Source of the DNA: Candidatus Poribacteria bacterium
Lineage (GTDB): Bacteria > Poribacteria > WGA-4E > WGA-3G
NCBI GenBank assembly: GCA_022828145.1
Contig: JAJEJA010000017.1
Coordinates: 1-64,000 of the forward strand
Length of the DNA stretch: 64,000 nucleotides
Direction: 5' to 3'
The position numbers and the translations under genes are program-made. Positions 15,539 to 63,890 of the stretch are shown piece after piece; position 1 is the stretch's first letter; each line of letters begins with the position of its first letter. The notes beneath the pieces were generated by a model. The model was not told where the DNA came from, made no database searches, and worked only from the letters and a program-made list of their open reading frames with translations.

Positions 15539-15575
15539 TGTATAGTCAAAAGTACATGTGTTGTGGAGAACTATG

Positions 15576-16703
15576 ATGATAAAGAACGATGTTGAACTTG
15601 TTAACAGTACTTTGTCTGGCGACGAAACAGCCTTCACTCTCTTAGTTCAGAAATACGAAAAGAGTATTCACGCTATCGTGTGGCGGAGGATCAAGGATTA
15701 TCACATCGCCGAAGAAATTACACAAGACGTCTTCCTACAAGCTTATGATAAACTGTCTACGCTAAAAGATCCGAATAAGTTTGGCAGATGGCTATATGTA
15801 ATTACGAAGCAGTTTTGTACAAAATGGCTTCAAAAGGAAAAACCTACAATGCTATCCTTAGATGCCATTGATACAGCAACCTTAGAGAAATCCGATTTTG
15901 CACATTATACCGCAGAACAACGTGAGAAGAAGGCAACAGAGCAGTACAAAGAAATTGTTAATGATCTTTTAGAGAAATTACCTGATAACCAACGTACAGT
16001 AGTGGTACTTTATTACCTACATGAAATGAAATACAAAGCAATTAGTAAATTGCTGGAAGTACCTATCAACACGATTAAGAGTAGAATCAGTCGTGCACGA
16101 CAACGATTGAAGGAGGAAGAACTGATGATTTGTGAAACTCTTGGCAGCATAGAACCCCCTATTGACTTAACCAATCATGTGTTTTGTGACAGTATGGAAT
16201 TCAAAGCGGGTACACCCTATTTTGACGACGAGAATGCAGTATATACCGGACCGCAAACCGTGAAAGCATTGATGAGTACCTTTGACACGGAGTTTGACGA
16301 TTGTATTGTAAAAATCACAGTCGGTATAGTTGAAGGTAAATCAAGTAGTCTCCCAATTGGTGAGATAGATAAACGGTTTCCACGGGCACAGTGGCTTCAA
16401 CTAATTTTGGATAATGGACTAACCATAGAAAACTTTGTGCATTATGCATCTTGTTTGTCCAAACGACATATTTTGGCTTTTTTAGAAGACAATCCAGACT
16501 TTCAGAAAGTCAATTTTTTCGGTATCCCCCCTCAAGATGACTGGAACAAATATATAATGACTTTTGTCAGGGATGTTATTGACACTGAGAAAACGGTTAG
16601 AGAACAGGGTGAACAGATACAGAAAGATGAGGTAACTGAAGCCTCCGCAACAGAATGGTTGAGAAAACTTCGAGAACAAGATGAACAGACGCACAAAGAT
16701 TAG
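15576..16703 (+). CDS. ECF-type RNA polymerase sigma factor with C-terminal extension, 375 aa
   Basis: Sigma-70 region 2 at about residues 10-80 (LVQKYEKSIHAIVWRR, then AEEITQDVFLQAYDKL and PNKFGRWLYVITKQFC) and region 4 at about 125-180 (LEKLPDNQRTVVVLYY, helix-turn-helix AISKLLEVPINTIKSRISRARQRL). Normal ECF factors end near residue 190. This one continues for about 185 residues with a domain I do not recognise (FDTEFDDCIVKITVG, FPRAQWLQLILDNG) and a charged coiled tail. The start at 15576 aligns MIKNDVELVN with MKRDDVELIQ of the gene at 59221; GGAG lies eight bases upstream. It sits inside the permease array and is its likely regulator. Confidence 0.88.
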   Translation: MIKNDVELVNSTLSGDETAFTLLVQKYEKSIHAIVWRRIKDYHIAEEITQDVFLQAYDKLSTLKDPNKFGRWLYVITKQFCTKWLQKEKPTMLSLDAIDTATLEKSDFAHYTAEQREKKATEQYKEIVNDLLEKLPDNQRTVVVLYYLHEMKYKAISKLLEVPINTIKSRISRARQRLKEEELMICETLGSIEPPIDLTNHVFCDSMEFKAGTPYFDDENAVYTGPQTVKALMSTFDTEFDDCIVKITVGIVEGKSSSLPIGEIDKRFPRAQWLQLILDNGLTIENFVHYASCLSKRHILAFLEDNPDFQKVNFFGIPPQDDWNKYIMTFVRDVIDTEKTVREQGEQIQKDEVTEASATEWLRKLREQDEQTHKD

Positions 16704-51849: not shown

Positions 51850-52290
51850 ATGATACGCATGATTGCACTTATATTGATGATACTGTGTTTTGGTATATTT
51901 ACCACCAACCTCACTGCAGAAGATATAGCCGTGGTTTCTAACAAGGCAACCATCAAGGGTAAAGTAATTGACATAACGCCTGAACAGAACCCTATCTTTG
52001 GTGTAAAGGTAACAGCAGTTGATGCAGCTGGGAAGGAATATACTACTCGGACGAACAAGAAAGGTGAGTATGAGATAACAGAACTTCCACCGGGACGATA
52101 CACAATTAGTTATTCCAAAGCTGGATATGGTGATAGGGTTGGGAAAACCAAGCTCGTAGCAGCAGGTGGAGAGATCTATGACAGAATCAAAATGCGAAAA
52201 CATGAAAATGTCCTTACTTTATATACTGACATTTTATCTGTAATTGTATTGTCATATATTCTGTTTTTTTTTCCAGCTCCTTCGGGTTGA
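51850..52290 (+). CDS. Carboxypeptidase-regulatory-like domain protein, 146 aa
   Basis: Signal peptide (1-23, IALILMILCFGIFTTNLTAE). One carboxypeptidase-regulatory (transthyretin-like) domain at about 35-95: KGKVIDITPEQNPIFGVKVTA, TRTNKKGEYEITELPPGRYTISY, then GYGDRVGKTKLVAAGGE. A C-terminal hydrophobic segment (about 118-140) may anchor it. AGGAG precedes ATG 51850. It is the sister of the next gene, with near-identical codons over about 75 bases at the domain end. Confidence 0.8.
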   Translation: MIRMIALILMILCFGIFTTNLTAEDIAVVSNKATIKGKVIDITPEQNPIFGVKVTAVDAAGKEYTTRTNKKGEYEITELPPGRYTISYSKAGYGDRVGKTKLVAAGGEIYDRIKMRKHENVLTLYTDILSVIVLSYILFFFPAPSG

Positions 52291-52325
52291 TATAGTGTCA
52301 AAAACCAATAAGGATATTGCACATT

Positions 52326-52808
52326 ATGTATCGCTTTTGTACACCTATAATTGTTCTGACGCTACTATGTCTGTTCGTTGACCGCGCAGTTGCACAAGAA
52401 GATTTAAACTTCGGTGGAACTATCAGAGGTGCCGTAATTGAAGCCACAATTGAAGCTACACAGGAACAGATACCAATTCCAGGTGTTACAGTTACAATTG
52501 TCGGTACTGATGGTGTGTCATACACTGTGCAGACGAATGACAAGGGTGAATTCATGCGTACGGGTCTCCCAGCGGGTCGTTATACGATAAGTTATTCCAA
52601 AGACGGTTATGGGGATAGAGTTGGAAAAACCAAGCTCGTAGCGGAAGGTGGAGAAATCTTTGACAGAATCAAAATGCGAAAGAAAGACACTATCGTGACC
52701 TTCTTTATGAAAAACCCGTTTGGTTGGAGTCTTTTTCTTGGTGCAGTTGTGGTAATGACTGTCGTGTTTATCCTCCTATTTCTTCACCTTGGTAAGCGAG
52801 GCATTTGA
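52326..52808 (+). CDS. Carboxypeptidase-regulatory-like domain protein, membrane anchored, 160 aa
   Basis: Signal peptide (1-24), domain at about 35-115 (IPGVTVTIVGTDGVSYTVQT, GEFMRTGLPAGRYTISYSKDGYGDRVGKTKL) and a clear C-terminal helix (WSLFLGAVVVMTVVFILLFL) followed by HLGKR. ATG 52326 is preferred over TTG 52317. Its TGA stop overlaps the ATG of the ATPase gene that follows (TGATG), so the two are translationally coupled, an unusual pairing for a surface domain. Confidence 0.82.
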   Translation: MYRFCTPIIVLTLLCLFVDRAVAQEDLNFGGTIRGAVIEATIEATQEQIPIPGVTVTIVGTDGVSYTVQTNDKGEFMRTGLPAGRYTISYSKDGYGDRVGKTKLVAEGGEIFDRIKMRKKDTIVTFFMKNPFGWSLFLGAVVVMTVVFILLFLHLGKRGI

Positions 52809-54132: not shown

Positions 54133-54214
54133 AACATCACTAATATTAACGCCTCAAAATTAGCAACCTAACGGACTACGTGTGTTACAGAATTATTCAA
54201 ATTATGTTCTCAAT

Positions 54215-54241
54215 GCAACCTTCAGTGATAGAGATCGCGTC
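54215..54241 (+). promoter_or_regulatory. ECF-type promoter before the sigma/WD40 gene
   Basis: GCAAC at 54215-54219, 16 bases, CGCGTC at 54236-54241, 35 bases before the ATG. The same pair with the same spacing stands at 59148-59174, and GCACC-N16-CGCGTC at 62784-62810. AAC in the -35 and CGT in the -10 are hallmarks of ECF promoters, so autoregulation is likely. Confidence 0.65.
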
Positions 54242-54276
54242 ATGTATAATTAGAACAAGTTTTCAGGAGTATACCG

Positions 54277-56892
54277 ATGTATGAGAATGATGGTGAATTA
54301 ATTCAGAATACTTTAGCGGGTGATGAAGCTGCTTTCAGCATGTTGGTAAAAAAATATCAGGAAAGCGTTCATGCCCTTGCATGGCGAAAAATTGGTGATT
54401 TTCATATCGCAGAGGAAATCACACAAGACACCTTTTTACAAGCGTACGATAAACTGTCCACATTAGAAGACCCGAATCTCTTTGCGGGATGGCTGCATGT
54501 CATTGCGAATCGACGTTGTATTGCCTGGTTGCGGAAGAAAAGAGTGGTGATGCAATCGTTGGATTTAACAAGTGAAGAAATATTGGAAAAAACCGCTTAT
54601 TCCTACTATATCGCAGAGCAACGTGAATTAGCATCCGCAGAACGTCGTCGTGAAATCGTTGAGATTCTATTGGAAAAGTTGCCAGAGACGCAACGGAAAA
54701 CGATAATCCTCCACTATCTCGGAGAGATGTCTTGTCAAGCAATTAGTAAATTATTGGGTGTTTCTTTGAATACGGTAAAGAGTCGGCTCAACCGAGCCCG
54801 GAATCGTTTAAAACAGGAAGAACCCAGACTTCAAAATCTCCTTGATCAAAGACGAGGAGACAATAGTATGGAAGACAAAAAAACCTCAATTCCTGTGCCA
54901 GTATGTTCATTTGAAGGAGATGTAACAGCTTGGGGGCTCCCTGAAGGTGCGCTTGCGCGATTAGGGCGCGGTAGCGAACCTAAAATGACATTCTCACCGG
55001 ATGGGCAGTATCTTTTCATTGGAACATGCATAGGAATGTGGCTATATGATCTTGCGACGTTATCACCTGACGCATTTTGGGAGGTAGAACAAGGGACTAT
55101 TGAAGCTGTTGCCTTTTCACCGAACGGAAATTGGATAGCCGCTAACAAATCAGGTGGAAACATTTTGATTTTGGATGTCCAAAATGGCACGTGCTTAACA
55201 CAGATGAGATCAGAGGAGTTTATACATAGTATGACCTTTTCTCACGATAACCGGTTTCTTGCTGCTGCTTATTATACTTCGCCTGACGTTGCAGTATGGT
55301 ATGTGGATACAGGTAAACCGTTTGCAAGATTTACACCAGACCCTGAAAGAGCTGGTACCTACCGCCCTATCTGTTTTTCCCCTGACACTCAACTGATAGC
55401 ATCTACGTTCAGATTGAATGCCACTGATGAGGCAGAGTCAATATTCGTATGGAGCATGGAAAGCAGAGAAAAGGTTGTGTGTCTCTCAGCACACACCCGC
55501 TGTGTAACGAGCCTCTGTTTTTCACCGTGCGGGAAGTTCCTCGCCACTGGCGGCGAAGATGGTACTGTGTTCGTTTGGGATGTTAGTACTTGGGAACAGG
55601 TGCAGTGTTATACCGATTATGGTGATGTGTACGGTATTACACCCTCCTATTCACCTGAGGGAATTCTCTTTGCGGTAATAGACACTTATGATAAAACGGG
55701 ACCTGCTACTATATCAGTTCGCAATCTTGAAAGCGGAGAAGAATTATACACAGATCAAGTTTGGGGTAATACCATAGATTTTTCCTACACTGGTGATTGG
55801 GGCAACACTGTCGTATTTTCAAACGGTTCCCAACTTGCTTATGAATGCCGACATGAATCCATCAATGTGTGGACTTCTGACAATCCTACCAAACAGCAAT
55901 TTACCCATTCACCAATTTCATTTCCGACCTCAGCAGTATTCTCAGAAGATGGCAAGACATTAGCAGTGAAATACCATCAGGAAGGTGTTGTGTTATGGGA
56001 TATAGCGACTAAACGTTCCCGTCCTGCAATAAGAGATGTATCAGCTGGCAAAAATCAGTTTGTCCATAAAACCGATGATGGCAAACTCTATGCGACAAGT
56101 ATCCAAAATGACACTGTTATACTCTGGGAAACTGACAGTGACGAGATGCCACTGATTGAAACAACGGGACGTGAGTATTGGAGCGCTTTTCCCGTATTGT
56201 CACCGACAGGCACGTTATTCGCTTATGCTGATGGCGATGGTAACATACATGTCTGGGATGTGAAAAGTAGAGAGAGAATTTTTAAGTTAACACATCCTCT
56301 TGAGCCAAGTGATAACAAGGTTGATAATGACGAAGATGATGGTGACTTTGTTGATGCGTTGGAATTCAGCCATGATGGAAAATTGCTCGTAAGTGAATCA
56401 AAGGAAAGAAATGTCAAACTGTGGGACATGGAACTTGGACAAGAGATAGAATTGTTGCCAAGTTATAAGGTTACGGGATTCCGGTTTTGCGATTGTGGAC
56501 AGCACCTTGTCTGCTTCGGCGATGAAGTAATTCCATATTGGGATATCACCCACCGAGAATTCTGTGAGGATGATACGTGCCTATATGAATCGAAAAAGCA
56601 CGAAATTGAGAGGCGATTGTCACTACCCAAAGAATATGAATATATTGAAAAACCTGTATTTACGACATGTGGACAGTATATTGCATTTATAACATCGTGG
56701 GACAAGGCTACAAAGAGTTATCCTATCTGTCTCTTTGAAGTAGAGAGTGGCAAACATCTTGTCACCTTTAGGGGACATAGCACAGATGTGACGGCACTTG
56801 TTCTTTCTCCAGACAACAAACTCTTAGCCAGTGCGAGTCATGATGGTACTGTTCTGCTTTGGGATCTCACGCCTTATATCCAATTAACGTGA
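54277..56892 (+). CDS. ECF sigma factor fused to a 14-blade WD40 protein, 871 aa
   Basis: Residues 1-190 are a full ECF sigma factor: region 2 (LVKKYQESVHALAWRKIGDF, AEEITQDTFLQAYDKL, ANRRCIAWLRKKR) and region 4 (LPETQRKTIILHYLGEMSCQ, SKLLGVSLNTVKSRLNRARN). From about 215 to the end come 14 WD signatures (from GMWLYDL to VLLWDLTPY), enough for two seven-bladed propellers. There is no membrane span. At 54868 an in-frame ATG with GAGGAG upstream begins the WD40 part at MEDKKTS, so a propeller-only product is possible. AGGAG precedes ATG 54277. Sigma/propeller fusions are known from Planctomycetes-type bacteria; the signal sensed is unknown. Confidence 0.92.
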   Translation: MYENDGELIQNTLAGDEAAFSMLVKKYQESVHALAWRKIGDFHIAEEITQDTFLQAYDKLSTLEDPNLFAGWLHVIANRRCIAWLRKKRVVMQSLDLTSEEILEKTAYSYYIAEQRELASAERRREIVEILLEKLPETQRKTIILHYLGEMSCQAISKLLGVSLNTVKSRLNRARNRLKQEEPRLQNLLDQRRGDNSMEDKKTSIPVPVCSFEGDVTAWGLPEGALARLGRGSEPKMTFSPDGQYLFIGTCIGMWLYDLATLSPDAFWEVEQGTIEAVAFSPNGNWIAANKSGGNILILDVQNGTCLTQMRSEEFIHSMTFSHDNRFLAAAYYTSPDVAVWYVDTGKPFARFTPDPERAGTYRPICFSPDTQLIASTFRLNATDEAESIFVWSMESREKVVCLSAHTRCVTSLCFSPCGKFLATGGEDGTVFVWDVSTWEQVQCYTDYGDVYGITPSYSPEGILFAVIDTYDKTGPATISVRNLESGEELYTDQVWGNTIDFSYTGDWGNTVVFSNGSQLAYECRHESINVWTSDNPTKQQFTHSPISFPTSAVFSEDGKTLAVKYHQEGVVLWDIATKRSRPAIRDVSAGKNQFVHKTDDGKLYATSIQNDTVILWETDSDEMPLIETTGREYWSAFPVLSPTGTLFAYADGDGNIHVWDVKSRERIFKLTHPLEPSDNKVDNDEDDGDFVDALEFSHDGKLLVSESKERNVKLWDMELGQEIELLPSYKVTGFRFCDCGQHLVCFGDEVIPYWDITHREFCEDDTCLYESKKHEIERRLSLPKEYEYIEKPVFTTCGQYIAFITSWDKATKSYPICLFEVESGKHLVTFRGHSTDVTALVLSPDNKLLASASHDGTVLLWDLTPYIQLT
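54853..54870 (+). promoter_or_regulatory. Internal ribosome binding site and in-frame ATG at the sigma/WD40 junction
   Basis: GAGGAG at 54854-54859 followed by ACAATAGT and ATG 54868, in frame (codon 198) with the fusion gene. The product would start MEDKKTSIPVPV and match the start region of the WD40-only gene at 57069 (LPEGA.ARLGRG). It may be the remains of a separate downstream gene joined to the sigma gene by loss of a stop. Confidence 0.6.
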
Positions 56893-56952
56893 TCTGTATT
56901 ACGCTATTGAAGATGGGCAGCATACGCCAGATCAAGAAATCATACAAAGTTC

Positions 56953-57020
56953 ATAACCCGACAGGAACGACACGTGTCGCCAGTCAATATTTTAATGGCG
57001 CAAGCTCTACCCGACCTACA
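56953..57020. repeat. Remnant of the GTAGGTCGGGTAGAG element
   Basis: AACCCGACAGGAACGAC, then ACGTGTCGCCAGT.AATATTTTAATG and CTCTACCCGACCTACA, matching the right half of the element at 13917-14012. The left arm is missing. It fills the gap between two WD40 genes. Confidence 0.7.
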
Positions 57021-57068
57021 ATATGTTATGAAAATTCGTGAAGTAGAAATGGTATAAGGAGATGCTTG

Positions 57069-59048
57069 ATGTCAAACAGTGAATTAGTAGTTCCCGCACC
57101 ATCTGCTTGCGGAGATGATGTGACCACTTTGGCACTTCCTGAAGGTGCGATTGCCCGTTTGGGACGAGGCGATGTAAATGATATCGCATTTTCACCAAAT
57201 AGACAGTATCTCACAGTTGTCACGGACATAGGGATTTGGTTGTATACATTGCCTACGCTATCTACTGTAGCGTTATGGGATACAGAAAACGGGCATACCG
57301 AGGTTGTCACATTTTCACCTGATAGTCGTTGGATTGCTGCTTACAGTAATAATGAAGAAACTTTAAAGATTTGGGACGTTCAAACAGGTGTATGCTTAGC
57401 ACAAATGGAAGATTCATATCAACCGAGTAGTTGCCGTCCCATTTTTTCACAAGATGGCAAGTACCTTTTTGGTCGGTCTCTCCAATGGTGTGTACAAACC
57501 GGTGAATTATATGACGAAATTGAATTATGGCACCCACATCCTACCAACGCCGCTGACTCTTTTACCTTTTCTTCAGATGGAACGCTGGTGATAGCAGAGA
57601 GATTTGATTTCAATAATGACAACACAGAGATGGTTGTATGGGACGTGGCGTCTGGTGAACAAATTGCGAGCCTCAGTGAAACAGGTGAAAGACACGATTT
57701 CGTATGGTTGAATCCCTGCTTTTCGCCGTGTGGACGCTTCCTTGCTATCGGTGATTCTCATGGAAAAATCAGGGTTTGGGAACTAAAAAGTGGAAATTTA
57801 GAAAAAACATATAACGACTTCGGAGACGCGAAGCTGTATCCATGCTATACATCAATCGGGAATCTGATTGCTGCCAGAATACTTCCGCAAACGGTCGAAG
57901 TATGGGATGTTGAAAAACACGGTATAATTGACGAGTTTGGAATTGATGGGGAATATGTTTCACGACATCGTGTCCGTTTTTCAGACGATGGTACACAACT
58001 TGTGGTGTCAATTCCAAACGAACTCTCCCTCTGGAGAAAAGAAACAGATGGAAGTCATACCCTCACTATACTTAATGGACATACAGATACTGCCGATTGC
58101 CTTGCATTCTCCTCCGATGGAAAAACATTAGCAGCTGGATATTGGGGAGCGAATGTCATCTTATGGGATGTGGCAAGCAAGCGTGCACATCGCCGAGGTG
58201 GAGAAAAACTGCGGGGAACCGCACATGCTGTTTATCTGTCTGCCAATGATGAATTCATTTCTATTGGAGGAGACGATAAAGATACACTCTGGATTTCAGA
58301 GATTGGAAATCCAGAACTGTTAGCCGAGTTTAACGAGCCTTGGTTTGGAGTACGTCAACCCTCAGCTTACGCATTAACTGCGCATAGATTAGCGCGTGTT
58401 GATGATGACTTAAATATTCATGTATGGCAGTTCACACATTCAATAGAAAGCGGGAAAACGGAAAAATGTTGGAGAAAACACACTATGCTGACTGGACACA
58501 CAGCGTATATTAGGGAATTGGCATTTAGTCCTGATGGCAACCAACTCGTCAGTATAGCAAGTTTAATAAATGATCCAACTTCTCACAACGTTAGATTGTG
58601 GGATGTGAATACTGGCAAGCAAATTGCCGAATTATCTTTACCGCCGATTATAAATTCTGAGAACATGTATCGTTTATGTGATCTGGGAATAGCGTTTTCA
58701 CCGTGTGGCAATTTAATTGCAGGGGGACAGTGCGGTGAGATTGTGATATGGCATGCGAAAACTGGGCAAATACACATGACATTACCACAACCGAAAGACA
58801 GTCAAAGACCCATTACGTTGTGTTTCTCACCGTGTGGAAAGTATTTAGCCTCTGGTGCATGGTGGCAAACGGGGTTAAAACTGGTATCTATCCGTTTGTG
58901 GGAGATTTCAAGTAAGAGAAATATCGCTACTTTCTGGAGCCATACTACTGATGTTCAAGATCTACAATTTTCACCAGATGGAACATGCCTTGCAAGTGCG
59001 GGGCATGACGGCGTAATCTATCTCTGGGATTTGACACCGTATATATAA
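57069..59048 (+). CDS. WD40 double-propeller protein without sigma domain, 659 aa
   Basis: Soluble protein, no signal peptide. After a short lead and LPEGAIARLGRGDVNDIAFSP it has 14 WD signatures (GIWLYTL, LKIWDV, IELWHP, MVVWDV, IRVWEL, VEVWDV, LSLWRK, VILWDV, LWISEI, IHVWQF, VRLWDV, IVIWHA, IRLWEI, IYLWDLTPY). This is the same count and the same entry sequence as the WD40 half of the fusion gene upstream. ATG 57069 with AAGGAG is the start. It may compete with or titrate the fusion protein's partner. Confidence 0.88.
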   Translation: MSNSELVVPAPSACGDDVTTLALPEGAIARLGRGDVNDIAFSPNRQYLTVVTDIGIWLYTLPTLSTVALWDTENGHTEVVTFSPDSRWIAAYSNNEETLKIWDVQTGVCLAQMEDSYQPSSCRPIFSQDGKYLFGRSLQWCVQTGELYDEIELWHPHPTNAADSFTFSSDGTLVIAERFDFNNDNTEMVVWDVASGEQIASLSETGERHDFVWLNPCFSPCGRFLAIGDSHGKIRVWELKSGNLEKTYNDFGDAKLYPCYTSIGNLIAARILPQTVEVWDVEKHGIIDEFGIDGEYVSRHRVRFSDDGTQLVVSIPNELSLWRKETDGSHTLTILNGHTDTADCLAFSSDGKTLAAGYWGANVILWDVASKRAHRRGGEKLRGTAHAVYLSANDEFISIGGDDKDTLWISEIGNPELLAEFNEPWFGVRQPSAYALTAHRLARVDDDLNIHVWQFTHSIESGKTEKCWRKHTMLTGHTAYIRELAFSPDGNQLVSIASLINDPTSHNVRLWDVNTGKQIAELSLPPIINSENMYRLCDLGIAFSPCGNLIAGGQCGEIVIWHAKTGQIHMTLPQPKDSQRPITLCFSPCGKYLASGAWWQTGLKLVSIRLWEISSKRNIATFWSHTTDVQDLQFSPDGTCLASAGHDGVIYLWDLTPYI

Positions 59049-59147
59049 AAGATTGCGGTTCATGAAAAAGAGTTGTAGGGATTCACATAAAAATACATAA
59101 CGGATTTTCTGAAAAAAGCTTAAAATTGTTTCAATTATGACAATTCC

Positions 59148-59174
59148 GCAACCTATACCCGAAAAAAACGCGTC
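59148..59174 (+). promoter_or_regulatory. ECF-type promoter before the second sigma/WD40 gene
   Basis: GCAAC at 59148-59152, 16 bases, CGCGTC at 59169-59174, 46 bases before ATG 59221. It matches the promoter at 54215 in both boxes and spacing while the sequence between differs. Confidence 0.65.
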
Positions 59175-59220
59175 ACCAAATATAAAAGATAGGAATCCTA
59201 ATTGATTATGGAGGTCTCTT

Positions 59221-60459
59221 ATGAAAAGAGATGACGTTGAACTTATTCAAGAAGTATTGTCAGGTGACGAAGCTGCTTTCAGCGATTTAGTCCAAAAATA
59301 TCAAAAAAGCGTGCATGCACTTGCATGGCGGAAAATAGGGGATTTCCATATCGCTGAAGAAATTACACAAGACACTTTTCTTCTGGCCCACAAAAAACTT
59401 GCCTCACTGAAAAATCCGAACCAGTTTGCCGGATGGCTGTACGTCATTGCAGACCGGTGTTGCAAAGCATGGTTTCGGAAGAAGCGAATACATACACAAT
59501 CAATTGAAACCACAAGTGTAGAAACACTCGAAAGAGCCGCTTATGCGGACTATGCATGTGAACAGCGTGAAGACGCAGCCGTTGAACACCGACGTAAAAT
59601 CGTGCAAAAACTCATGGAAAAACTGCCGGAAAGTGAACGCACAGTGATGGTGCTTTACTATCTCGGAGAAATGAACTGTGCAGAAATTAGCAAGTTTTTA
59701 GGTGTATCGCCAAATACGGTTAAAAGTCGACTTAAACGGGCGAGAAAACGTTTACAAAACGAAGAACACATCATTAGAGAAACCCTCGGCAGTGTTCCAT
59801 TGCGAACAGATTTAACTGAAAATATCATGCGGAGCATTGACACAATCAAACAAACATCTCCATCAGGAGGCAATCCGTTGCTACCGTTCGCAGCTTTAGG
59901 TGCATCTGCTATTTTGGTTATTCTGTTGATGGGTGCAAGCAAGCAATTCACCGCTAATTTTCAGAAGCCATATAGTCTTGATGCGACATCAGAACACGTT
60001 ATTGAAATCGTTGACGCGCCAGCTGTTCTTGATATCCAATCAAAACCAGAATTACAAAACCGGGTTGGTGGTAGGAATCAAAGCAAAAACAGGAACAACG
60101 GTCTAACAGAAGGAACAAAGACAGCGGAAAATAACCTAACACAAGATGCTATGCAATGGAATCTACCTGAAAATGCCAAAGCACGACTCGGTAAGGGTAA
60201 GATAAATGAGATACAGTATTCTCCAGAAGGAACAATACTTGCTGTGGCGACTAATATTGGTATTTGGTTCTACGATACAAGAACACATCAAGAGATCGCA
60301 CTACTTACAGATCATGAAGGTGAGGTTACCAACATCATCTTTAGTCCTGAAGGACGCTTTTTTGCAAGTGGAAGTGAGGATGGTACCATCATGTTATGGA
60401 ATAGAAGCTCAGGGACACAAACAATACTTACAATACCTATGGGGTTGTCCCGTACATAA
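59221..60459 (+). CDS. ECF sigma factor with membrane span and start of WD40 region (5' part of frameshifted gene), 412 aa
   Basis: Sigma region 2 (LVQKYQKSVHALAWRKIGDF, AEEITQDTFLLAHKKL) and region 4 (LPESERTVMVLYYLGEMNCA, SKFLGVSPNTVKSRLKRARK) at residues 1-190. A hydrophobic helix LLPFAALGASAILVILLMGA lies at about 220-240, then a polar linker rich in Asn/Gln/Lys and two WD blades (GIWFYDT, IMLWNRS). The frame ends early at TAA after a GGGG run; adding one G at 60441-60444 joins it to the next frame without a gap. Restored, the protein would be about 911 residues with 14 blades. GGAGG precedes the ATG. Confidence 0.88.
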   Translation: MKRDDVELIQEVLSGDEAAFSDLVQKYQKSVHALAWRKIGDFHIAEEITQDTFLLAHKKLASLKNPNQFAGWLYVIADRCCKAWFRKKRIHTQSIETTSVETLERAAYADYACEQREDAAVEHRRKIVQKLMEKLPESERTVMVLYYLGEMNCAEISKFLGVSPNTVKSRLKRARKRLQNEEHIIRETLGSVPLRTDLTENIMRSIDTIKQTSPSGGNPLLPFAALGASAILVILLMGASKQFTANFQKPYSLDATSEHVIEIVDAPAVLDIQSKPELQNRVGGRNQSKNRNNGLTEGTKTAENNLTQDAMQWNLPENAKARLGKGKINEIQYSPEGTILAVATNIGIWFYDTRTHQEIALLTDHEGEVTNIIFSPEGRFFASGSEDGTIMLWNRSSGTQTILTIPMGLSRT

Positions 60460-60461
60460 AC

Positions 60462-61955
60462 ATGGCATTCAGTCCAGATGGAAAAACAATTGCGATTGGA
60501 AATAGTGGGACCATCAGCATTTGGGATACTATCACTGGAGAACAGAAGTCTTCAGTCACCAGTGATTTAATAGATTCAAATAACTTTATCAGATTTCTAC
60601 CGGATGGAGAAACAATTGTTTGTGTTAATTGGGGCGGACTAATTAGTTTATGGAACATAAGCATTGGTAAACTTGAAAAGTCAATTGCTGATATAGATCA
60701 TACAACTCCTATATGGTGGGGAACAACCCTTAGTCCTGATGGCAAGACAGTCGCAGTGGGTAGTGGTGATATAGATGGTAATATTTACATCATCGACTTA
60801 AACACGAGTGATCTCATGTTAAAACTCAGCGGACATTCGGATGAGGTGGACTCTTTGATTTTCAGTCCAGATGGAAAAACCCTCGTAAGTGCATCTTATG
60901 TAGATGGAACAATCCGACTATGGGATACAAACACTGGTGAACACAAGCGAACACTTACTGGACATACAGGGTATATTCTGGGTTTAGCATTTAGTCCTGA
61001 TGGAAAAACTATCGCAAGTGGAAGTGGGGATGGTACCATCCGTTTATGGGATGCGTCCACAGGTAACCAACAAATTGAATTTATAGGACATACGGATACT
61101 GGTGAGAGTATTGCATTTAGTCCTGATGGTCAGACAATTGCATGTGGATTTAGTGATGGTTACATTCGGTTATGGAATGTAGACACCAGAAAACACATAA
61201 AAACATTCCAAGAGTCAAAATTTTATGTAGAGAGTTTGATGTTCACGACAGATGGAAATACACTTATTTCTGGAATCGGCAAAAACATTTATCTGTGGGA
61301 TGTTCATACGGATAAATTTAGAAAAATAATCTCTGGACATCTAAAGGATATCAATAGTATAGCACTCAATGCTGATGGAAATATACTTGCAAGTGGAAGT
61401 GCGGACAATACAATTCGTCTATGGAATATGATTACCGGAGAACATACAAAAACACTCATAGGACATGAGCATAGCATCTATGGTGTAACGATTAGCCCAG
61501 ATGGCAAAACGCTTGTAACAGGTAGTGACGACAATACGATACGACTTTGGGATGTAAACACTGGCAAGACCAAGATGATATTAAACGCACTTACTGTAGA
61601 TGGAAAAAATAAAGGTGTCATGAGTGTTGCTTATAGTCCAGACGGTAAAATCCTTGCCAGTGGAGGCATGGAAACTATTATTATATGGGATATAAATACT
61701 GGTAAAAGTAAGATGACTTTCACAGAGCATAGACATTATGTTCTTTGTTTAAGTTTCAGTCCAGATGGCAAAACGCTTGCAAGTGGAAGTACGGATACAG
61801 ATATCCACCTATGGGATCCACACACTGGTGAACTCAAGAATACATTTTCAGGACACACTGGTTCGGTTTCTGGTATTGCCTTTAGTCCAGACGGAAAAAC
61901 CCTCGTTAGTAGCAGTAATGATGGCACTGTGCTTCTCTGGGAGATAGATCCCTAA
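60462..61955 (+). CDS. WD40 region, 12 blades (3' part of frameshifted sigma/WD40 gene), 497 aa
   Basis: Twelve WD signatures from ISIWDTITG to VLLWEIDP. With the two blades at the end of the preceding frame this makes 14. The frame is also open upstream of ATG 60462 in the right register (GVVPYIN before MAFSPDGKT), and no Shine-Dalgarno stands before the ATG, so it is the continuation of 59221 and not a separate gene. Several blades are close to identical in DNA (for example SPDGKTLASGS and SPDGKTIASGSGDGTIRLWD), a sign of recent repeat exchange. Confidence 0.85.
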   Translation: MAFSPDGKTIAIGNSGTISIWDTITGEQKSSVTSDLIDSNNFIRFLPDGETIVCVNWGGLISLWNISIGKLEKSIADIDHTTPIWWGTTLSPDGKTVAVGSGDIDGNIYIIDLNTSDLMLKLSGHSDEVDSLIFSPDGKTLVSASYVDGTIRLWDTNTGEHKRTLTGHTGYILGLAFSPDGKTIASGSGDGTIRLWDASTGNQQIEFIGHTDTGESIAFSPDGQTIACGFSDGYIRLWNVDTRKHIKTFQESKFYVESLMFTTDGNTLISGIGKNIYLWDVHTDKFRKIISGHLKDINSIALNADGNILASGSADNTIRLWNMITGEHTKTLIGHEHSIYGVTISPDGKTLVTGSDDNTIRLWDVNTGKTKMILNALTVDGKNKGVMSVAYSPDGKILASGGMETIIIWDINTGKSKMTFTEHRHYVLCLSFSPDGKTLASGSTDTDIHLWDPHTGELKNTFSGHTGSVSGIAFSPDGKTLVSSSNDGTVLLWEIDP

Positions 61956-62698: not shown

Positions 62699-62783
62699 TC
62701 TTCGTTATATCAACCCTGATAGACATCATTAAGAGATCATAGTCAGTATTATTCAACTATGATCTCTTAATTGTGCCAATCTT

Positions 62784-62810
62784 GCACCCAACTCGCTCAG
62801 AAAACGCGTC
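62784..62810 (+). promoter_or_regulatory. ECF-type promoter before the third WD40 gene
   Basis: GCACC at 62784-62788, 16 bases, CGCGTC at 62805-62810. One base differs from the -35 at 54215 and 59148. The gene start is about 150 bases further on, and no sigma domain precedes this WD40 gene. Confidence 0.5.
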
Positions 62811-62958
62811 CCCTATATTGGAAACTAAAATAGACCGATATTTATTCAATTGGACACTTTTGAGTTGTAAAGGGACCTCCGATTCCCGGTTATAAAGGCA
62901 GTTCGTCCCGATTTGGAGATAGTTCCTTGATAACACAGCAATTTAAGGAGAGAAAACT

Positions 62959-63648
62959 ATGGAGATAACGAGTGCGGACTACGCACTTTATTTGACATTT
63001 GAAGGACATCAGGAAGGAGTCAATAGTGTCGTATTCAATAGGGATGGTAATACACTCGCAGCAGACATGGATAACACTATCAGGTTATGGGATATTCCCA
63101 CAGGGCAAGAAAAGAAGATGTACTGGGTGGATACAGGGGAGCATTCCACAAGTGGTGTTAGAAGTGTTGCAATTAGTCCGAATGGATGTGTTATCGCTGG
63201 GGGTGTCAACGAAAGCGAGACAATCTGTCTTTGGGATTTAGAAACAACGGGACAGACCCATTTATTGCGTGAGAGGACAAGTAAAGCTATGCATTGGGTC
63301 AATACTGTGGCATTTAGTGTTGATGGTAAGATGCTCGCAAGTGGAAGTGAAGATGGTAACCTATACTTGTGGAATGTAAGGACAGGTGAAAAACTAAAAG
63401 CACTTACTGAGGGTACAGAGAATATCTTTAGTATTGCATTTTGTCCTGATGGTAAAACGTTAGTGAGTGGAAATGCTGGCAACACTATCCATCTATGGGA
63501 TATCGGTTCAGGTAAAAACATCGCGACGTTGGATGGACATGCTGATTGGGTCTTTTCTGTAGCAGTTAGCCGTGATGGCAAAACACTTGCCAGCGGAAGT
63601 AAGGATAAAACTATCCGTATATGGGATACGAACACAAACGAGAATTAA
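62959..63648 (+). CDS. Single-propeller WD40 protein, five blades (5' part of frameshifted gene), 229 aa
   Basis: No signal peptide. Blades: IRLWDIPTG, ICLWDLETT, LYLWNVRTG, IHLWDIGSG, IRIWDTNTN. AAGGAG stands before ATG 62959. The frame stops at TAA right after IWDTNTNEN; the following frame continues the propeller. One extra G near 63637 would give NTNGELKSLIGH and restore it. With the next two blades the protein has exactly seven, one closed propeller. Confidence 0.85.
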   Translation: MEITSADYALYLTFEGHQEGVNSVVFNRDGNTLAADMDNTIRLWDIPTGQEKKMYWVDTGEHSTSGVRSVAISPNGCVIAGGVNESETICLWDLETTGQTHLLRERTSKAMHWVNTVAFSVDGKMLASGSEDGNLYLWNVRTGEKLKALTEGTENIFSIAFCPDGKTLVSGNAGNTIHLWDIGSGKNIATLDGHADWVFSVAVSRDGKTLASGSKDKTIRIWDTNTNEN

Positions 63649-63890
63649 AATCACTCATCGGACATAAGCACATCGTCTGGAGTGTCGCAATTAGTCCTGA
63701 TGGTAAAACACTTGCAAGTGGAAGTGAAGACAACACCATACGTTTGTGGGATATTACTACAGGAGAACAACTTACAACCATAACAGGACACACCGCACCA
63801 GTGAAATGTGTCAACTTTAGTCCAGATGGCACAAAAGTGGCAAGTAGTACTGACGATGGCGCTGTGTTTATCTGGGAAATAAACATCTAA
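63621..63890 (+). CDS. WD40 region, two blades (3' part of frameshifted gene), 89 aa
   Basis: Reads ELKSLIGHKHIVWSVAISPD, IRLWDITTGEQ, GHTAPVKCVNFSPDG and ends VFIWEINI. It supplies blades six and seven of the propeller begun at 62959. Its first codons overlap the end of the upstream frame and have no ribosome binding site, so it is not an independent gene. Confidence 0.82.
   Translation: MGYEHKRELKSLIGHKHIVWSVAISPDGKTLASGSEDNTIRLWDITTGEQLTTITGHTAPVKCVNFSPDGTKVASSTDDGAVFIWEINI

Follow-up and report, generated by a model that had tools for sequence, protein, structure and literature searches.

At positions 54277-61955 of the window, by which we mean the whole 64-kb stretch of Candidatus Poribacteria DNA analysed here (contig JAJEJA010000017.1), lie two genes that join an extracytoplasmic function (ECF) sigma factor to WD40 repeats in one protein. 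All positions refer to the window; the assembly it belongs to (hereafter the own genome) comprises 5.06 Mb in 123 contigs. On the alignments described below, the sigma-plus-promoter halves and the propeller halves of these genes and their relatives have separate histories, with a step near the start of the propeller. We read the products as one-piece signalling proteins, in which a double WD40 propeller would serve as the recognition head and the ECF sigma factor as the output, and in which propeller cassettes are swapped on a constant chassis. The probability that we attach to this reading is about one half. The fusion of a sigma factor to WD40 repeats is not itself new, because such fusions have been described in Planctomycetes (ECF57). 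What appears to be new here is the constant chassis with a common promoter motif, the compartment-matched neighbours and the apparently exchanged propellers.

Architecture of the sigma-WD40 proteins

Two layouts can be distinguished by domain matches and hydropathy. The soluble layout, that of the gene at 54277, has no transmembrane (TM) helix. The membrane layout, that of the gene at 59221, consists of sigma factor, conserved linker, one TM helix and head. The genes and their parts are as follows.

54277-56892, + strand: soluble ECF sigma factor with 14 WD40 repeats, 871 amino acids in a single open reading frame (ORF); supported by Pfam, TIGR02937 and WD40 profile; no TM helix by hydropathy.
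54277-54846, + strand: sigma region of this protein (TIGR02937), residues 1-190, with Cys81 and Cys153.
57066-59048, + strand: WD40-only protein of 660 amino acids without sigma domain, TM segment or signal-peptide-like segment; candidate partner (ORF, profile, structure model).
59221-60459, + strand: ECF sigma factor, linker, TM helix and first 2 WD40 repeats, 412 amino acids, the frame being broken here (ORF, Pfam, hydropathy).
59878-59934, + strand: TM helix LLPFAALGASAILVILLMG of the 59221 protein, mean hydropathy 2.35; part of the conserved linker-TM module.
60462-61955, + strand: the other 12 WD40 repeats of the broken 59221 gene, in a different frame (ORF, Pfam, profile).

Both sigma domains are of the ECF kind, with regions 2 and 4 and without region 3, and both pass the TIGR02937 cut-off. 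The N-terminus of 54277 scores 87.9 bits against the NCBIfam sigma70-ECF threshold of 42.9, and Sigma70_r4_2 is matched in the same protein; regions 2 and 4 of 59221 are matched by PF04542 and PF08281. In the aligned sigma domains of the family Cys81 is present in 109/109 and Cys153 in 73/109; two genes in overlapping loci are counted twice here at most, and likewise in the repeat tallies, sigma-region identities and sigma/propeller pair counts below. A relative of 54277 at 89% identity occurs in another Candidatus Poribacteria genome. Unlike the broken 59221 gene, most close relatives in congeners are single open frames of 910-953 amino acids.

WD40 repeats were counted with a profile built from the own genome. 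It finds 14 repeats in 54277, 2 in 59221 and 12 in 60462 on the two sides of the frame break, and 13 or 12, in two runs, in 57066. The initial annotation had ascribed 14 blades to each of the three proteins, a number that stands for 54277 and for the restored 59221 and becomes 12-13 for the WD40-only protein. Over the fetched fused genes 14 is the commonest repeat number. The combination of a sigma factor with 14 repeats, for which a search across genomes had been proposed, is typical of the complete TM proteins (14 repeats in 29 of 39, 15 in six, and 9, 12, 13 and 21 once each) but not of the 18 complete soluble ones, which range from 11 to 16 and have 14 in four cases. A sigma-TM protein encoded on the minus strand of L094 (G000:C61) has 21 WD40 repeats, possibly three rings.

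Structure prediction was the other check that had been proposed. The AlphaFold model of 57066 has 53 strands by hand count, about what 13-14 four-stranded blades need, and the model of 54277 has 52, also counted by hand. Among solved structures (Foldseek) the best match to the 54277 model is the double propeller 2YMU (E 4.7e-30), although the global similarity is low (TM-score, a measure of fold similarity, about 0.3) and the mean predicted local distance difference test score (pLDDT) is 64.6. Confidence in the two models is middling, their input having been limited to the window proteins and one relative. By repeat number, 54277 and 59221 plus 60462 may each form a double seven-bladed propeller, with two putatively closed rings.

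A shared entry to the first blade (LPE.A.ARLG.G) had also been claimed. Captured as one regular expression, it lies directly ahead of blade one in 48/59 fused WD40 proteins and in 24/32 sigma-less proteins with at least 10 repeats, and it occurs anywhere in the length of 0/1,099 other ORFs, which bears out the motif.

Separate histories of sigma and propeller halves

Among 46 complete sigma-WD40 proteins the sigma part is more similar than the propeller in 1,025 of 1,035 pairs. When the sigma parts are at least 90% identical, the propellers fall below 60% in 36 of 45 pairs. They do so in all 11 pairs at that level from the same genome, in which agreement at fourfold-degenerate sites averages 74% over the sigma part and 47% over the propeller. 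The reverse can be seen at such sites in cross-species pairs, for example 62% over the sigma part and 96% over the propeller. Because the contrast is visible at fourfold sites, the mosaic pattern does not arise from selection alone. Of the pairs with propellers at least 75% identical (n = 18), 11 show a fourfold identity in the propeller that exceeds the sigma value by more than 0.1, and 7 do not. For only 15 of the 46 proteins is the nearest relative by sigma also the nearest by propeller. In all five pairs for which DNA identity profiles were drawn, a step is seen at the propeller start or no more than about 250 bases away from it; in one of them the similar block extends beyond the stop codon.

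The 59221 gene gives an example within the window.

60143-61954, no strand assigned: propeller cassette with 91.2% DNA identity to L114:6604-8413 of a congener, a sigma-less propeller gene whose product is predicted to be secreted (DNA alignment).

This match begins 20 bases ahead of the entry motif at 60163. Two sigma-TM genes that stand beside the secreted gene in the congener resemble the window at 81-94% over sigma and linker and at 57-80% over the propeller. Since the match to the secreted gene starts at 60143 and the similarity to the sigma-TM genes drops by about 60,320-60,440, the joint should lie between. A step of the same kind occurs in a tandem pair of the single-contig congener G010 (L123), where windows over sigma and linker are 84-100% identical and those after the start of the propeller 42-65%, apart from the last one at 75%; the same genome supplies a milder cross-species case (L113). 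Hypervariability of single blades was considered as a source of diversity and set aside, since blade identity within a protein is moderate (0.32 in soluble and 0.41 in TM forms), which fits whole-propeller exchange better.

A common promoter motif

The fetched loci supplied upstream regions for 105 distinct fused-sigma genes. Most of these genes carry a common predicted promoter motif of the ECF type. The pattern TGCA[A/C]C, 10-20 bases, CGTC is found upstream of 61/105, and in 56 of these the spacer is 18 bases long. The form TGCAAC..CGTC precedes 43/105 fused-sigma genes, as against 1/269 other ORFs of the same loci and 89/20,000 random segments; the single positive among the 269 is the homologue of 62959, a WD40-only gene. 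Scored with a matrix derived from 54 unique sites of this kind (threshold at the 99th percentile of random segments), 71/105 upstream regions pass, 56 of the 105 having supplied training sites. On both strands of the whole window exactly three sites score above 20 (54208, 59141 and 62777), and in ten Markov windows, scanned on one strand, there are none.

54208-54249, + strand: ECF-type promoter site ahead of 54277, TGCAAC-N18-CGTC at 54214-54241; matrix score 26.7; strict pattern; matrix training site.
59141-59182, + strand: same motif ahead of 59221, with the -35 variant CGCAAC; matrix score 37.5; outside the training set.
62777-62818, + strand: same motif ahead of the WD40-only gene 62959; matrix score 35.1; strict pattern; outside the training set.
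62959-63890, + strand: single-propeller WD40-only gene with 5 repeats (62959-63648) and more in another frame (63621-63890) (ORF, profile).

The L103 homologue of 62959 is one stop-to-stop frame of 322 amino acids. Frame breaks at 60404-60462 and 63621-63648 affect two neighbouring WD40 genes, through either pseudogene formation or sequencing error.

Because the motif has the ECF form and stands before sigma genes, it is probably these sigma factors that read it. Mean pairwise identity among them is 71% in region 4.2, 71% in the core-binding part and 55% in region 2.4 (regions set by eye). Region 2.4 being less conserved, paralogues may differ in -10 recognition. Across 18 genomes of the genus, the own genome included, a stricter form of the pattern occurs at 327 sites against 108 for a reversed control. 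In the own genome the strict pattern is near chance genome-wide (38 sites against 34 for the reversed control); a larger regulon therefore finds no support in this pattern, which is an insensitive one. Among the 38, 32 distinct sites were looked at, which stand ahead of a fused-sigma gene in 10 cases (once with a sigma stub) and ahead of a WD40-only gene in 2.

Sigma-less propellers beside the sigma genes

A WD40-only gene lies within 450 bases 3' of the sigma-WD40 gene in 17 of the 59 cases with a readable 3' side. The neighbour starts with a signal-peptide-like or TM segment in 9/9 cases after TM-sigmas and in 0/8 after soluble ones (Fisher 4e-5, a value that ignores relatedness, several neighbours being orthologous, so that the effective number is smaller). 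Starts and export or TM segments were called by hydropathy, without a signal-peptide program. A partner rule for all sigma genes is ruled out, as only 1/45 uncut genes of the BNR type has such a neighbour in addition to the 17/59. A conserved anti-sigma partner had been named in the initial annotation as a finding that would speak against it; the sigma-less propeller answers to this only by half, being a candidate partner and no known anti-sigma factor. This recurring neighbour, the TM helix of 59221 (none in 54277) and the promoter motif common to most sigma paralogues are features beyond that annotation.

Fused and split forms both exist, because in G010 (L187:4303-13700) a plain ECF sigma factor of 207 amino acids precedes a same-strand tandem array of WD40-only genes, some of whose stop-to-stop frames overlap. 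Sigma-less descendants of the fused form are also found. In L183 (G000:C61, about 52 kb) an ORF of 1,235 amino acids has the family promoter, a truncated sigma domain, a TM helix and 14 WD40 repeats, and by this layout it is a sigma-less descendant of the receptor form. L088 is another, in which linker and TM helix are kept.

Size and spread of the family

The own genome has 57 Sigma70_r4_2 matches. Stretches were fetched around all of them save C74, and C76 was left out of the counts. They hold 39 distinct fused-sigma proteins: 16 with WD40 (12 TM, 4 soluble), 16 of the BNR/sortilin type (15 TM) and 7 others. The 59221 protein is counted under the others, since its sigma domain is confined to the first piece. 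In L084, L063 and L065 the outer part on this sigma-TM chassis is, in that order, M16 peptidase-like, a C-type lectin and of the sortilin/BNR type. In G010, all 23 sigma domains that score above 180 bits to that of 54277 sit in open frames of at least 298 amino acids; 15 of its 18 weaker sigma domains are of ordinary ECF size, 198-227 amino acids. With a 105-residue profile, the linker-TM module is detected in 67 of the 84 phylum genomes: 58/58 in family f1, 9/14 in the rest of the order and 0/12 beyond it. Copies in a single genome reach at least 57, no more than 57 candidates having been scored in any one genome.

A further fused sigma of the same clade lies at 15558-16703 (sigma domain 57% identical, open frame of 385 amino acids). 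Neither a TM helix (hydropathy) nor WD40 repeats (profile) were found in it, and its upstream region is below the promoter-matrix threshold. ECF sigma factors fused to FtsZ/tubulin occur at L098:1252-3075 (G000:C89) and on the minus strand at L061:5937-7235 (G000:C81), the fusion on C81 being outside the count of 39. Both match Sigma70_r2 and Tubulin in Pfam, and L098 also has FtsZ_C and r4_2 above cut-off. Near full-length matches to a 528-residue query, 51-100% identical, are present in 10 of 21 genomes searched, the own genome included. For some of them the open frame is about 1,400 amino acids long, and a separate FtsZ-like gene of ordinary size is present too. Ahead of a gene for a MalK-type ABC ATPase, 51850-52808 holds two tandem ORFs that look alike by eye, the second of which has a carboxypeptidase-regulatory-like domain.

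Comparison with known systems

The closest described group is ECF57 of Planctomycetes (e.g. Singulisphaera acidiphila), which has a C-terminal WD40 extension and no known anti-sigma factor (PMC8999054, in the part cited). By description, the proteins studied here share the ECF sigma factor with a C-terminal WD40 extension. Two conserved cysteines of ECF57 were proposed to link sigma2 and sigma4, and activation through protein interaction was suggested (PMC8999054). Cys81 and Cys153 are candidates for such a pair. Unlike ECF57 as described, the present family has a conserved TM linker module, heads other than WD40, a promoter motif in common, sigma-less propellers that match the compartment, and cassettes that appear to be exchanged. 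Some Planctomycete ECF sigma factors with WD40 repeats have been found in detergent-soluble fractions, with domain shuffling mentioned in general terms (PMC8567305), and ECF-WD40 combinations are reported in Gemmataceae (PMC11032199). The Gemmataceae and Tuwongella proteins are alike in that there are many young ECF paralogues, most of them with WD40; they differ in belonging to another phylum, and the passages cited from these two papers are without promoter sharing, secreted partners or half-gene exchange.

A sigma factor fused to a membrane anti-sigma part is known from IutY (ECF243) of P. putida, which is freed by Prc and RseP cleavage, and from ECF48/52/53 (PMC8999054, same part). Here too sigma factor, TM helix (by hydropathy) and a presumably extracytoplasmic part form one chain. 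In contrast, no anti-sigma or zinc domain was found here, and the outer part is WD40, BNR/sortilin-type, M16 peptidase-like or C-type lectin. Prokaryotic WD40 proteins with 14 repeats are known (PMC5587647, passage cited), and 2YMU (B2J0I0_NOSP7) has its 14 repeats in two rings and is not joined to a sigma factor. In Poribacteria WD40 is abundant, the word 'sigma' being absent from that paper (PMC3909097). A paper mentioning ECF-like domains with TRADD-N has, in the passages cited, nothing on the present family (PMC8195603). Our literature search of a limited collection found no paper on Poribacteria sigma-WD40 proteins.

Proposed mechanism and alternative explanations

As the sigma factor must be cytoplasmic, the membrane form would expose its propellers outside the cytoplasm, a placement supported by the exported neighbours (9/9). 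It appears plausible that sensing or inhibition falls to the propeller, as the initial annotation suggested and in line with the published view of ECF57 (PMC8999054, as far as cited). Binding of a ligand or protein to the propeller would free the sigma factor. Release in the membrane form would probably follow cleavage close to the membrane, on the model of P. putida IutY; alternatively, the tethered protein would change shape. Each sigma factor would most likely turn on its own gene and the genes of its relatives. An adjacent sigma-less propeller in the same compartment could be a co-receptor, decoy or antagonist, and cassette swapping would give new specificities on the constant chassis. The own genome has one full-length M50 protease, but the M50 family is matched in 14/14 control genomes too, so that regulated intramembrane proteolysis is feasible and no more than that can be read from the matches.

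Several points weigh against the signalling reading. A sigma-less neighbour accompanies only the minority of sigma-WD40 genes given above, and WD40-only arrays also sit without any sigma gene nearby. The ownership of the promoter is correlative: 34/105 fused genes are below the matrix threshold, genes outside the training set pass in just 15/49, the strict pattern is near chance in the own genome, and region 2.4, the expected reader of the -10 element, is the less conserved one. No anti-sigma family is among the Pfam matches listed for the scanned window proteins (for WD40 proteins, the best 25 matches), which bears out the absence of an anti-sigma gene noted initially; for 59221 no anti-sigma or zinc family is among the best 25 of 26. 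The linker between sigma domain and TM helix has no conserved Cys or His in a 15-row alignment, a very divergent domain being conceivable. The 59221 gene of the window is itself frame-broken. The majority of the genomes are metagenome bins in pieces, where assembly could have wrongly joined sigma segments that are nearly identical. It is on such bins that the strongest cross-species swaps depend, and among the genes used L112:10137 has a stop close to its start. The ligand, protein contacts and transcripts of this reading are putative.

One alternative, which we regard as possible yet doubtful, is a lineage-specific expansion of ECF57-like sigma-WD40 proteins by tandem duplication, with the propeller acting in cis, the WD40-only neighbours being partnerless duplicates and the propellers diverging faster. 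The described WD40 extensions of ECF57 and the Gemmataceae expansion agree with this, as do the sigma-less descendants L183 and L088 and the WD40-only arrays away from sigma genes; on the same side, the closest relative by sigma is in the same genome for only 16/46 proteins. Faster divergence, however, leaves unexplained the steps at fourfold sites and the cross-species pairs whose propellers are closer than their sigma parts. Against it, too, is the disagreement between nearest relatives by sigma and by propeller (the same protein in only 15/46), and duplication by itself does not confer signal peptides on the neighbours of TM-sigmas only.

It is unlikely, in our judgement, that what counts is the propeller itself, as a scaffold, an adhesin or a surface-recognition protein, and that the fused sigma factor mainly holds its own locus on, making an on/off device for expression and not a sensor of external signals. 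That 12 of the 32 strict sites precede genes of the family would fit, and L181, one of the two WD40-only genes behind such sites, opens with a signal-peptide-like segment. On the other hand, 20 of the 32 sites are unannotated and 6 of the 38 lie outside the sample; the strict pattern catches just 61/105 of the family's own genes, so that other targets would be missed; and conservation of the TM linker in 67 genomes suggests signal transfer. Very unlikely is a reading in which the mosaic pattern comes largely from metagenome assembly confusing sigma segments that are nearly identical. Within one genome, sigma halves reach 99% identity, and the majority of the 84 genomes consist of many contigs, but the same step is present in the tandem pair of the one-contig G010, and the 59221 propeller matches a whole sigma-less gene with no join at a sigma domain.

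Implications

In the part of the review cited, the mode of action of WD40-bearing ECF sigma factors is merely suggested (PMC8999054). With a constant chassis and one predicted promoter, any propeller is testable with the same reporter. Extending the signalling reading, we tentatively consider a variable-receptor repertoire resembling an innate immune or recognition system, though we would not yet favour it. Dozens of loci would share the promoter-sigma-TM chassis, with double propellers recombined near a fixed joint and the same propeller tethered in one genome and secreted in another. Early output would be mainly more of the receptor class, each locus being a self-sustaining switch set by the ligand of its propeller, possibly from the sponge or from neighbouring microbes. 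Poribacteria are known as sponge symbionts (PMC3909097, portion cited). If it is true that cassettes move between tethered and secreted forms, these bacteria would possess a repertoire of exchangeable receptors coupled directly to RNA polymerase.

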